Shown piece after piece: positions 24,223-28,894 of a stretch of 45,552 nt of DNA; positions within the stretch are counted from its first letter, which is position 1; the number at the start of each line of letters is the position of its first letter. Location of the stretch: contig WLGS01000004.1 in NCBI GenBank assembly GCA_009703125.1, forward strand, positions 1-45,552. Reading direction: 5' to 3'. Below the pieces are notes generated by a model. That model did not search any database. It saw only the letters and a program-made list of their open reading frames with translations, and was not told the origin of the DNA. The translations under genes were made by a program, and so were the position numbers. This DNA comes from Actinomycetota bacterium (GTDB taxonomy: Bacteria > Actinomycetota > Acidimicrobiia > Acidimicrobiales > Ilumatobacteraceae).

Positions 24223-26139
24223 GTGCGAACAAACGACCCGACTAGCTCAATGAGGGCCCTGAGCCCAGAATCTGTGCTGGTGGGCCTTGATGCAGACCAG
24301 CGAGCAGCCGTGACTGCCCCCACGGGAATCATTGTTGTGCGTGCGGGAGCAGGCTCGGGAAAGACAACCGTTCTTACGCGACGAATCGCCTGGCGTGCAT
24401 TATCTGAAACTGCTGACATCAACCGCACGCTTGCCATCACCTTTACCCGTCAAGCGGCCACCGAAATGCGCGCTCGACTTTCACAATTCGAACTTGACGG
24501 ACGACCCACCATCGGCACTTTTCACGCCGTCGCGCGACGACTCATGATGCAGCATTTCCAGGACAAAGGGAAAACAGCGCCCGTCATAATCAACAATCGC
24601 ACTTCTGTTTTGTCACTCAGCATGGGGGCCGATGCTCGCAAGGGTGGACTACATGAAATTCTTGCAGCAATTGATTGGGCTCATGGGCACATGTGTTCAC
24701 CCCAACAATCCGTGGAGAAAATGACACGAGCAGGATTAACAATCCCACTCGGCTCGGATCGTTTCGTTGATGTATTCGAGACATACGAAAAGACCAAGAA
24801 AAAACGTGGCGTGGTGGACCTCAACGACTTTCTGACATTCGTTGTGCATGAGGCTCGACGTGATCAGCGCTACATCGAGTCGGTGAATTTTCAATTCAAA
24901 CATCTTTCCGTTGATGAAGCACAAGACATGAACCCTCTTCAATATGAATTCTTGAAGGTTCTCTCAGGCTCAAGTCCTGACCTCTTTCTTGTAGGTGATC
25001 CAAATCAAGCGATCTATGGATTTAACGGTGCGGACAAAACATTGTTTGATGAGTTACCCGGTATTGGCTCACCAGCACAAGTGATTTCGTTGCCTTCGAA
25101 CTATCGATGCACTCCAGAAATTGTGTCGTTTGCGGTGGACACCTTGTCGGGTCAAGGTCAACCGACAGAGGCGTATTCACGTCGCAATTCAGGACTTCCT
25201 GTTGACCTGCGACGCTTCCCCACCGAAGTACAAGAACTGCAACACATTGTGCGCGTGGTCTCTGATGTGCAACGCTCTGAATCACTTAACTCAATAGCCG
25301 TACTTTGCCGCACGAATGTTGTTGCCGAGAAAGTACGCACCGCTCTGACCGACGCAGGACTGGCGGTTCGCTCGGCGCGACGTGGCGGTGAGTGGGCGCG
25401 TGCAGTTGCAATTGCTACCGACCTCACAGGACGCGAATCATTGTCCACTTGGGCATCGGATGTACTGGACTTGGGCGACTACACCGAACAAGACAGCGAC
25501 TACCAAGTGGCCAAGTTGGTTCGACAGTTTCTCGATGACAACCGCATGGGTTCCGTAGATGGCCGCGCATTTGGTTCATGGGTTGCAACATCAGCAGATG
25601 TTGCCGAATCAGATGGAGTTGAAGTCCTTACTTTTCACGCAGCCAAAGGTCGTGAATGGCCACATGTGATTGTGGCGGCATGTGAAAAAGGCCTACTTCC
25701 CCATCGAAGCGCCCGTGGTGCACTCGCCCGCGCCGAAGAAGTGCGTCTTGCCTACGTTGCATTCACTCGTGCAGCACATCAACTCATTGTCACTTGGACT
25801 GACCAGCGAGAAAGTCGCTCGTCTGGGCCATCTCCATTTTTGCCCTCGCTCACCACTGCAACACCCACATACACTGCACCCACTCAAGAATTTCGTGAGC
25901 GTCGCAAGAAAGTGTCAACAAAGAATCCACTCGAAGAAGCGCTGCTTTCTTGGCGTGGGGCAAAGGCCCGCCAGATGCGTGTGGACCCCGATGCTGTCTT
26001 GTCACAACGTCAACTAACCGCACTCATTCGTACGTTGCCTCACACTGTTGACGAAATTGAAGAAATCGCTGATCCAGTGTTTGCCCATAGATACGGACAA
26101 GAGATTCTCGCCCTTATTCGAGAGCAAGGGAATTCTTAA
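24223..26139 (+). CDS. uvrD2: UvrD2-like superfamily I DNA helicase with HRDC domain
   Basis: A 638-residue 3'-5' DNA helicase of the UvrD/Rep type. Motifs in order: Walker A AGAGSGKT at 41-48, Ia TFTRQAATEMRARL, II DEAQD (SVDEAQDMNPLQYEFL) near 230, III GDPNQAIYGFNGAD, IV LPSNYRCTPEIV, V VLTFHAAKGREWPHVIVA, VI RLAYVAFTRAAHQL. The last ~65 residues (MRVDPDAVLSQRQLTALIRTLP...) match an HRDC domain, which is the mark of actinobacterial UvrD2. The Cys4 zinc motif that mycobacterial UvrD2 carries before HRDC is absent. It probably acts in DNA repair. The tail overlaps the thioesterase gene (opposite strand) by 26 bases. Confidence 0.9.
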   Translation: MRTNDPTSSMRALSPESVLVGLDADQRAAVTAPTGIIVVRAGAGSGKTTVLTRRIAWRALSETADINRTLAITFTRQAATEMRARLSQFELDGRPTIGTFHAVARRLMMQHFQDKGKTAPVIINNRTSVLSLSMGADARKGGLHEILAAIDWAHGHMCSPQQSVEKMTRAGLTIPLGSDRFVDVFETYEKTKKKRGVVDLNDFLTFVVHEARRDQRYIESVNFQFKHLSVDEAQDMNPLQYEFLKVLSGSSPDLFLVGDPNQAIYGFNGADKTLFDELPGIGSPAQVISLPSNYRCTPEIVSFAVDTLSGQGQPTEAYSRRNSGLPVDLRRFPTEVQELQHIVRVVSDVQRSESLNSIAVLCRTNVVAEKVRTALTDAGLAVRSARRGGEWARAVAIATDLTGRESLSTWASDVLDLGDYTEQDSDYQVAKLVRQFLDDNRMGSVDGRAFGSWVATSADVAESDGVEVLTFHAAKGREWPHVIVAACEKGLLPHRSARGALARAEEVRLAYVAFTRAAHQLIVTWTDQRESRSSGPSPFLPSLTTATPTYTAPTQEFRERRKKVSTKNPLEEALLSWRGAKARQMRVDPDAVLSQRQLTALIRTLPHTVDEIEEIADPVFAHRYGQEILALIREQGNS

Positions 26140-26812
26140 GGTCCCGACCTTTTTTCAATCGCTCCATCAACTCAGCGGGCATTGACAAAAACAATCCCTC
26201 AGATTCAGCACATAGTGTCTCACCATTGTGCGCAGTGCCTTTTGTGAAAATCTTTCGCCCCTCAACTTTTTCAACCCATCCCACAAAATGAATCGGCGTG
26301 TTCAACGGCGTGGGTGCACGATATGTGATACTCAGTTTTCCCGTCATCCCAGGGCGACCCGTCAACGATTGAGCCATGCCCAGCACCTCGTCAAAAGCTG
26401 CTGCAATGAACCCACCATGACAATGGCCCGGCGGGCCTTCATAGAGTTCTGTGAACACTGCCTCACCTGTGACCGAACCAAATTCCCCACCACCGTCAAC
26501 AAGACCCATTTTCATTGGCATGGAAAGTGGATTCATTGCTCCATAGATCGGGCTGCGATCTGAAAAATGTGAATCGCTTGCTGCTGAACCTGGCACATGT
26601 GGTGCGGCGCGCAGAACGGCGAGTTGTTGCTCCATCTCAAGAGCCAAGGCATCAATTTCGACAGCCGAAGCATGCGACGTAAATGCTTCGCGCATAACGC
26701 GCCGCATGACATCGGCAAGTCTGACTCGGGCTAGATCAGAATCTGAGAGTTCTCCATCTCGCTGATGAAAAGTGGGAAATGTTCCAAATGGGGAATCAGA
26801 TTCCGTGTTCAC
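26114..26812 (-). CDS. PaaI/THEM4-type acyl-CoA thioesterase (hotdog fold)
   Basis: A 232-residue protein whose C-terminal ~130 residues form a hotdog thioesterase. The active-site region is PPGHCHGGFIAAAFDEVLG, with HGG and the catalytic Asp, and the fold continues with GKLSITYRAPTPLNTPIHFVGWVEK. The N-terminal ~100 residues are a helical extension with many Ala, Glu and Arg. It would hydrolyse acyl-CoA; the chain length is unknown. The GTG start overlaps the xthA stop (GTGA), so it is translated after xthA. Its 3' end overlaps uvrD2 on the other strand. Confidence 0.85.
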   Translation of the reverse strand: MNTESDSPFGTFPTFHQRDGELSDSDLARVRLADVMRRVMREAFTSHASAVEIDALALEMEQQLAVLRAAPHVPGSAASDSHFSDRSPIYGAMNPLSMPMKMGLVDGGGEFGSVTGEAVFTELYEGPPGHCHGGFIAAAFDEVLGMAQSLTGRPGMTGKLSITYRAPTPLNTPIHFVGWVEKVEGRKIFTKGTAHNGETLCAESEGLFLSMPAELMERLKKGRDLKNSLALE

Positions 26813-27585
26813 GGTGCATCTACCTTCAACAACACTGGTGCATGATCACTAGGCGACTCACCCTTTCGAGCGTTGCGATCCACTGTTGTCCACGTAGAAC
26901 GTGCGGCAACAGTGGTAGTTGCAAGCAAAAGATCAATCCGCATGCCATGGCCTTTGTAGAAACTGCCACCTCGATAGTCCCACCATGAAAAAAGTCCCGC
27001 ATCATTGTGAAAACGACGGAACGTATCTTCCATACCAAAGTCACATACATGACGCAGTACATCACGTTCAGGTTCACTCACGTGAGTGGCATCTGCAAAC
27101 TGCGTCACGTCCCACACATCGCGATCATCGGGTGCAATGTTGAAATCACCCGCCACAATCACATCATCGCTGGGGGCACATGTTGCATCTAGGTGTTCAC
27201 GCAAACGCTTCATCCACGAGAGCTTGTATTGATAGTGATCATGATCAAGTGAACGACCATTGGGCACATAGACCGAACTCACTCGCACGCCTCCACAAGT
27301 TGCCGAAATAATGCGGGCTTCGTGGTCTTGTTCCACTGTCGGCGCAAAATTCAACATCACATTCTCAAGTCCCACCTTGGACACAATGGCCACGCCGTTC
27401 CATTGACCCTGACCAAAGTGGGCACTTTCGTATCCAAGAGATGCAAAAGCTTCTGTGGGGAACTTTTCTTGAGCCAATTTGGTCTCTTGAATGCACACCA
27501 CATCGGGTTGCACCTCTTCAATCCAGGCTTCCACGCGGGGCAACCGCGCCTTGAGAGAATTAACGTTCCATGTCACAAACAGCAC
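26809..27585 (-). CDS. xthA: Exodeoxyribonuclease III (XthA)
   Basis: AP endonuclease and 3'-5' exonuclease of base-excision repair. 258 residues with the EEP fold: N-terminal TWNVNSLKARLPRVEAW, metal-binding Glu in VCIQETKL (about residue 35), AGDFNIAPDDRDVWD (about 150), WWDYRGGSFYKGHGMRIDLLLAT (about 205-227), and the catalytic SDHAPVLL near the end. I choose GTG 27583-27585 because TACCGT lies exactly 6 bases upstream; a TTG two codons earlier would be inside the promoter spacer. It lies 51 bases after the NYN-domain gene. The thioesterase gene follows with a 4-base overlap. Confidence 0.94.
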   Translation of the reverse strand: MLFVTWNVNSLKARLPRVEAWIEEVQPDVVCIQETKLAQEKFPTEAFASLGYESAHFGQGQWNGVAIVSKVGLENVMLNFAPTVEQDHEARIISATCGGVRVSSVYVPNGRSLDHDHYQYKLSWMKRLREHLDATCAPSDDVIVAGDFNIAPDDRDVWDVTQFADATHVSEPERDVLRHVCDFGMEDTFRRFHNDAGLFSWWDYRGGSFYKGHGMRIDLLLATTTVAARSTWTTVDRNARKGESPSDHAPVLLKVDAP

Positions 27586-27591
27586 TCTCAA

Positions 27592-27636: not shown

Positions 27637-28824
27637 TTATTTCTTTTTTGGCGCTGATTTCTTGGCTGTCACGACTTTTTTGGCAGCAGGTCGTGCGGTT
27701 TTCTTCACAACTGGAGCTGCGGTCTTTTTGACTACAGCTTTTTTGACAATTGCTTTCTTGACGACATTCTTTTTTGCAACAGCCTTCTTTGTGGGGGCCT
27801 TTTCCACGGACACCTTGCGTGCCGGTACCCCAGGCTTTTTGATTGTTGATTTCTTAGCGCCTGCAACTTTTGATGACGCAGTCTTTTTTGTCTTCTTCTT
27901 TGTGTCGTGCTGAAGTGACTCTGCCACTTTTGTGGCCACTACATCAGGAACACCAAGGTCCACACTTCGTCGAGAAGGTGAGTAACCCACCACCATGAGC
28001 GATACTTGGTCACCCAATTTGAAGACATCACGCGCGCTTCGCGGAATGGGAGTTGCCATGTTTTTCAACGGCACATAGCCCGCAATGCTTCCCATTCGCA
28101 CTGACACACCATTGGCCGCATAGGTCTCTACAACTGCTTTAACTTTTGCGCCGACAGGATGTTTCTCCACAAACTCCAAGAAAGACACAAGATCATTGAC
28201 CATGGTTGTTGCGGGTTTGCTGGCGCTCACTGGCGCCTTGGCAGTAGTTGCGGCGTTCTGCTTCGCCGAAACAGGAGCAGACTTTGCAAGACGTGCATTA
28301 GGTGGCGGTGTCTTGGGAACGGGCATGGGCTTGCTCGCCTCTGGACTTGCAGCCGGTAATGCTTTTGCCACCACGCCACCATGTTTCACCGACCGACGAC
28401 TTGTTGGTCCTCGAACTGGAAGACGTTCCACCAACACCCAACCCACGAGTGGTACGGGCTTGCCACCAATGAGACGACCTTCATCAAAGAGCCACTTGTA
28501 TTTTCCATGGAACTCTTGGAAGCTGTCATTTGAAAAAATTGCAGCATTTACTTTGTCGGCAATCGCCAAGATAAATGCGTCTCCACGACCCACGGCTCCC
28601 GCAGGTGGCGTCACTAATTCATTGTTTGCCAAAGCCTTTTCAAACTCAGCACGCTCTTTCTTTGCAATCCGATGCCCAAAGGTGGCATCAACAATCACAG
28701 TCACTTTGGCGCCCTTGTATTCGTCCATCAAGGCACTGACGGCCTCATCTAATTGGGCCAAACTGGGCTCTGCTCGACCTTCGGTGGCGATATTTGATCC
28801 GTCAACGATGATGTGTTTGGTCAC
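27637..28824 (-). CDS. NYN-type ribonuclease with S1-like domain and lysine-rich histone-like tail
   Basis: A 395-residue three-part protein. Residues 1-135 look like a Zc3h12a-like NYN/PIN nuclease: the acidic residues expected at the metal site are Asp8 (VDGSNIA), Asp46 (VIVDATFG), Asp82 (GRGDAFILAIADK) and Asp100 (FSNDSFQEF). A Pro/Ala/Ser linker follows. Residues about 210-295 resemble an S1 RNA-binding domain (VGAKVKAVVETYAANGVSVR, then GYVPLKN and SRRSVDLG). Residues about 305-395 are a Lys/Ala-rich, low-complexity tail with many AxKK repeats, like histone H1 or the HupB tail of actinobacteria. I infer an RNA endonuclease held on nucleic acid. The start is GTG 28822-28824, just after an in-frame TAG. 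xthA lies downstream on the same strand. Confidence 0.8.
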   Translation of the reverse strand: MTKHIIVDGSNIATEGRAEPSLAQLDEAVSALMDEYKGAKVTVIVDATFGHRIAKKERAEFEKALANNELVTPPAGAVGRGDAFILAIADKVNAAIFSNDSFQEFHGKYKWLFDEGRLIGGKPVPLVGWVLVERLPVRGPTSRRSVKHGGVVAKALPAASPEASKPMPVPKTPPPNARLAKSAPVSAKQNAATTAKAPVSASKPATTMVNDLVSFLEFVEKHPVGAKVKAVVETYAANGVSVRMGSIAGYVPLKNMATPIPRSARDVFKLGDQVSLMVVGYSPSRRSVDLGVPDVVATKVAESLQHDTKKKTKKTASSKVAGAKKSTIKKPGVPARKVSVEKAPTKKAVAKKNVVKKAIVKKAVVKKTAAPVVKKTARPAAKKVVTAKKSAPKKK

Positions 28825-28894
28825 CTAGTTAGTCAAGCACTCCCGCACCCCTAATCGGGGGCAATCGGACCCCATAGGCCATATCAATAGCCCC

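Follow-up and report, generated by a model that had tools for sequence, protein, structure and literature searches.

An NYN nuclease domain, a bS1-type S1 domain, and a Lys/Ala-rich tail in a single conserved protein of Acidimicrobiia

The Zc3h12a-like NYN/PIN RNases (Regnase-1/MCPIP1, ZC3H12B/C, N4BP1, and KHNYN) carry the NYN fold together with CCCH zinc finger, KH, or UBA-type partners. A bacterial NYN protein has been described as a Mn2+-dependent RNase requiring its first Asp; the same paper cites Rae1/YacP (PF05991), an NYN endoribonuclease of Bacillus subtilis, as acting in a ribosome-dependent manner (PMC11346440). In RNase R, the nuclease is followed by S1 and then by a Lys-rich disordered C-terminus. 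In Escherichia coli, this Lys-rich region after S1 is needed for recruitment of the enzyme to stalled ribosomes (PMC3949413). Histone-H1-like Lys/Ala repeats are known from several actinobacterial proteins (TopA, HupB/HupS, Ku, and HrdB), and in TopA, Ku, and HupB they function in binding to DNA (PMC7398561). PRORP combines the NYN catalytic fold with PPR and zinc-binding domains.

The window (the whole stretch of 45,552 nucleotides that was analysed) contains a gene at 27637..28824 on the minus strand, which starts with GTG and encodes a protein of 395 residues. A preliminary description had read this ORF as an NYN nuclease, an S1 barrel, and a basic tail in a single chain. This was borne out by Pfam matches, AlphaFold models, and fold searches against the PDB, and the ORF is confirmed as a real gene of this make-up. 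It is more than a chance assembly: of 100 related genomes, 83 have a homologue, mostly as one full-length match and sometimes as two pieces split by a variable linker, and the NYN and S1 parts are under strong purifying selection. The earlier interpretation as a whole was partly supported; the three parts stood, and the type of the S1 domain and the position of the tail were refined, as described below.

The protein belongs to neither RNase R nor Rae1/YacP; it resembles the former in layout and the latter in logic. Its NYN catalytic domain is unrelated to the RNB 3'-5' exonuclease domain of RNase R, for which no Pfam match was found in the protein, and a cold-shock domain is lacking. With Rae1/YacP it shares the NYN endonuclease logic and the proposed translation-linked action. 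However, the two represent different NYN families: PF05991 did not match the protein at E-values up to 1, and both families coexist in 41 genomes. The described lysine-repeat proteins act on DNA or transcription, whereas the repeats of the present protein are joined to RNase and S1 domains.

The NYN/PIN nuclease domain (residues 1-139; 28408..28824, minus strand) was matched by RNase_Zc3h12a (PF11977) at residues 3-108 with 34.1 bits, against a cut-off of 23. Structure prediction gave an NYN/PIN fold, as had been expected for the N-terminal part: the domain modelled alone had a pLDDT of 87 and a pTM of 0.84, and in the model of residues 1-300 its pLDDT was mostly 85-94. Fold searches against the PDB matched ZC3H12C, KHNYN, ZC3H12B, Regnase-1, and PRORP with E-values of about 1e-6 to 1e-5; the top 30 matches were all ZC3H12, KHNYN, or PRORP structures (TMq 0.66-0.77). 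The DGSN-A and SND motifs and the residues Asp8, Asp82, and Asp100 are shared with the Zc3h12a-like RNases. The protein differs from them in being bacterial, in having GD in place of DD, in an extra invariant Asp46, and in carrying S1 and a Lys/Ala tail instead of their partner domains.

Asp8, Asp46, Asp82, and Asp100, which had been named together as four acidic site residues, are invariant in 81 of 81 sequences, namely the window protein and the best 80 of at least 578 relatives found in a scan of genome contigs. Upon alignment to solved structures, Asp8, Asp82, and Asp100 fall on the catalytic aspartates of Regnase-1 and KHNYN. Asp46, by contrast, has no aligned Asp in Regnase-1. An equivalent of it (VFDPG) was seen by eye in an unrelated Pseudomonas plasmid NYN protein having the same GRGxD pattern. 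Gly81 occupies the position of the first Asp of the metazoan "DD" pair. Thus, of the D, DD, D catalytic set, three aspartates are aligned, the DD pair contains Gly81, and the invariant Asp46 might be a fourth.

The S1 domain and its preceding helix (residues 209-293; 27946..28200, minus strand) were recognized by PF00575 at residues 221-291, with 23.3 bits against a cut-off of 22. In the model of residues 1-300 this part formed an S1 barrel with a pLDDT of about 95, in agreement with the preliminary description, and the fold search returned structures of ribosomal protein S1 (bS1). By sequence, too, it is closest to bS1 among PDB entries, including the helix that precedes each bS1 repeat; the E-value of 1e-23 is a sum over several bS1 repeats, the best single repeat giving 6e-5. 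The S1 part is therefore specifically of the ribosomal-protein-S1 type. The bS1 type and the pre-repeat helix, as judged from sequence and model, would favour tethering to RNA or the ribosome over tethering to the nucleoid.

The linker between the two domains (residues 140-208; 28201..28407, minus strand) is predicted to be disordered, with a pLDDT of mostly 44-69. It contains a PMPVPxxPPP motif at residues 166-175 (28300..28329, minus strand), recognized by sequence comparison. The fixed Pro and Met positions are kept in 71-80 of the 81 sequences, which come from the best-matching, mostly Ilumatobacteraceae, loci. The motif is missing from most of the distant members, in other families, several of which have Arg-rich linkers instead.

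The Lys/Ala-rich C-terminal tail (residues 294-395, dense from about residue 309; 27640..27945, minus strand) has a net charge of +30, and its last 60 residues are 35% Lys. The preliminary description would have failed had the tail been peculiar to this genome, which it is not. The tail was found positive in all 78 complete sequences, with net charges of +11 to +45 and lengths of 26-276 residues. Among 26 close pairs, 85 of 591 substitutions in the tail (14%) alter its charge. The charge of the tail is thus conserved while its sequence drifts. A Pfam match to the HC2 histone-like family (PF07382) is considered compositional, because its score of 20 bits is under the gathering score of 40. Among 318 ORFs, picked as the longest, in 344 kb sampled from this genome, only the window protein had a C-terminus that reached 22% Lys, and a genome-wide habit of Lys/Ala tails was rejected. 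The only other comparable Lys/Ala stretch in this sample is an internal segment near the N-terminus of a protein read as IF-2 (L155:691-3690; G000 C60).

The position of the Lys/Ala stretch in homologues of the window protein is not fixed. Three members of family f22 (L135, L151, and L152) have no C-terminal tail; they carry a Lys/Ala stretch in the linker that joins NYN to S1, and their chain ends with S1. The stretch is relocated in this family, not lost. The tail is therefore not essential in the C-terminal position. It might be argued from these members, and from the variable length and drifting sequence, that the tail is a neutral or solubility-type basic extension and that S1 alone sets the target, or, from the GD in place of the DD pair, that the protein has a regulatory function and weak catalytic activity or none. 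We regard this as quite unlikely: the net charge is positive throughout, the substitutions mostly preserve charge, no other ORF in the genome sample has such a tail, and the aspartates are invariant.

Homologues were found in 107 of 296 Acidimicrobiia genomes, ten of the 107 lying in six families of other orders. This count, together with that from the related genomes, showed that the make-up is not peculiar to the genome of the window. Every PF11977 match among 197 genomes of the phylum lay inside the genomes and loci of the NYN-S1-tail family itself, and when 296 phylum genomes were searched with a profile, the matches outside Acidimicrobiia covered S1 alone or the tail alone. The NYN part is thus confined to Acidimicrobiia in the phylum sample. 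Among the best 80 of the at least 578 relatives, informative titles were Ilumatobacteraceae, Acidimicrobiaceae, or related, apart from a few plainly mislabelled MAGs. The dN/dS ratios from the 26 close pairs were 0.024 for NYN, 0.136 for the linker, 0.037 for S1, and 0.18 for the tail; these values are approximate because the synonymous divergence is high. The carriers are mostly uncultured freshwater and marine Acidimicrobiia, in which the protein is strongly conserved. Some genomes of the same order have, in addition, a shorter Zc3h12a-type NYN match (about 75-95 residues); it lies in ORFs of 153-267 residues that apparently lack S1, for example at G078 C36:101808-102071 (the genome of L139) and similarly in G070, G606, G444, G583, G523, G502, G621, and G601.

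Effectors and toxins are common among bacterial NYN/PIN proteins, and the present protein could in principle be a toxin, a phage protein, or a mobile defence protein. This is extremely improbable and already largely refuted. The gene is usually present as one full-length copy per genome and is vertically conserved, with fixed synteny and the low dN/dS ratio of its NYN part. Outside the phylum, the search covered phages, plasmids, and viral contigs: no relatives were found in the phage and IMG/VR collections, and the plasmid collection gave one weak NYN-only match. A PHROGs search returned nothing convincing. A phage or mobile origin was accordingly rejected.

In the window, kgd and a HAD hydrolase gene lie upstream of the gene; xth (exodeoxyribonuclease III; 26809..27591, minus strand; TIGR00633, 250.9 bits), a thioesterase gene, and a UvrD-like helicase gene lie downstream. 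Within 26114-27591, xth and the thioesterase-like ORF overlap by 4 bases on the same strand as the gene, and the UvrD-like ORF (24223-26139, plus strand) overlaps the thioesterase ORF end to end. Among the best-matching loci, xth follows the gene in 76 of 76 with enough flank, and four others end at or near a contig edge. The kgd adjacency is found across much of Acidimicrobiales. In several further families, and in every locus sampled from other orders, the gene persists with xth missing from its neighbourhood. In the other orders, the neighbours, judged by eye from translations, are rhodanese, CoA-transferase, AMP-ligase, and WYL-like proteins with no common theme. An operon partnership with xth was therefore rejected as a general rule; it is fixed in the best-matching, mostly Ilumatobacteraceae, loci and not in several other families. 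The gene order is conserved, yet nothing about the neighbours indicates a function in RNA metabolism; if anything, they suggest DNA repair.

These neighbours bear on the possibility that the nuclease is tethered to the nucleoid, with H1/TopA-like Lys repeats holding DNA, and that it processes R-loops, primers, or damaged ends together with exonuclease III. The fixed position of xth in the best-matching loci, with the UvrD-like helicase beyond, and the DNA-binding role of the actinobacterial Lys repeats cited above are in line with such a function. Persistence of the gene apart from xth speaks against it, as do the RNA-binding fold of the bS1-type domain and the RNase nature of the relatives of the NYN domain, and it is considered unlikely. 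The tail alone does not settle whether DNA or RNA is bound; the bS1-type domain shifts the balance towards RNA.

A TGC-TTGACT element (28831..28839, minus strand) lies 6 nt before the GTG codon (TGC-TTGACT-N6 at 28825-28839, followed by GTG). In most orthologues, TTGACT, TTGAAT, TTCAAT, GACAAT, or TAGGCT is found 6-12 nt before the start, and no obvious Shine-Dalgarno sequence is seen in the few nucleotides before it. Judged from these sequences, the element is a possible extended -10 for transcription of a leaderless mRNA.

The genome of the window, which is 94% complete, contains RNase E/G, and no match to an RNB-family RNase or YacP was found in it; the protein may therefore be an important NYN endonuclease there. 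Across the 296 genomes of the class, counted by hand, RNB occurs in 15 of the 107 genomes that carry the gene and in 16 of the 189 that lack it, and YacP in 41 of 107 and 97 of 189, respectively. This is co-occurrence, not exclusion, and functional replacement of RNase R or YacP was rejected. The RNase P RNA is also present in this genome (RF00010, 239.7 bits), and a role as RNase P was rejected since the RNA subunit is there. A substrate-specific role in RNA maturation (of tRNA or rRNA, or RNase P-like), with the NYN domain used as in PRORP, is very unlikely for the same reason. Although PRORP1/2 are among the best fold matches, their similarity is no greater than that of the ZC3H12 and KHNYN domains, and no PPR or zinc-binding domain was found in the protein with Pfam.

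It seems fairly likely that the protein serves as a metal-dependent housekeeping endoribonuclease and that S1 and the basic tail hold it on RNA, the probable target being translated mRNA or the ribosome. This reading is supported by the predicted folds, the invariant aspartates, the purifying selection, the distribution across the class, and a tail whose charge is conserved. The relocation of the Lys/Ala stretch in f22 and the precedents of RNase R, the Mn2+-dependent bacterial NYN RNase, and Rae1/YacP also speak for it. The NYN domain would cut single-stranded RNA via an Asp-based site formed by Asp8, Asp82, and Asp100, with Asp46. The bS1-type domain would bring the nuclease to its RNA, which is most likely mRNA at or close to the ribosome. 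The disordered basic tail might add sequence-independent affinity for nucleic acid or the ribosome, in the manner of the Lys-rich region that follows S1 in RNase R. We infer catalysis, the RNA substrate, and tethering to the ribosome or mRNA. Counting against this reading are the neighbours, which give no RNA context, the absence of a replacement pattern with RNase R or YacP, the Gly in the DD pair, and the fact that actinobacterial Lys-rich tails are best documented on DNA-binding proteins. A more specific proposal is put forward as a tentative possibility, and a somewhat doubtful one: the protein could be an ancient, Acidimicrobiia-specific mRNA-surveillance endonuclease acting on translating ribosomes via a borrowed bS1 module and the basic tail. 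It would then be a bacterial counterpart of Regnase-1 or Rae1, serving lineages, such as that of the window, for which no RNase R or YacP was found.

In the part of the literature that was searched, no account of the combination of NYN, S1, and a Lys/Ala tail was found. The suggestion that the protein is undescribed thus holds for its architecture and not for its parts, each of which is of a known kind; what is new is the domain architecture, the kind of nuclease being already known. Because the parts are familiar and the combination had no account there, the protein looks like an unstudied RNA-decay enzyme of the class Acidimicrobiia. These bacteria are abundant in lakes and seas and are almost unstudied genetically. 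If active as proposed, the protein would be a class-specific core RNase, to which standard annotation gives no specific name, and it would show a Zc3h12a-type nuclease, a kind familiar mainly from immunity in animals, at work as a housekeeping enzyme of bacteria. It would also test whether S1 and a Lys-rich tail form a reusable module that brings unrelated RNases, such as RNase R and this NYN protein, to RNA or ribosomes.
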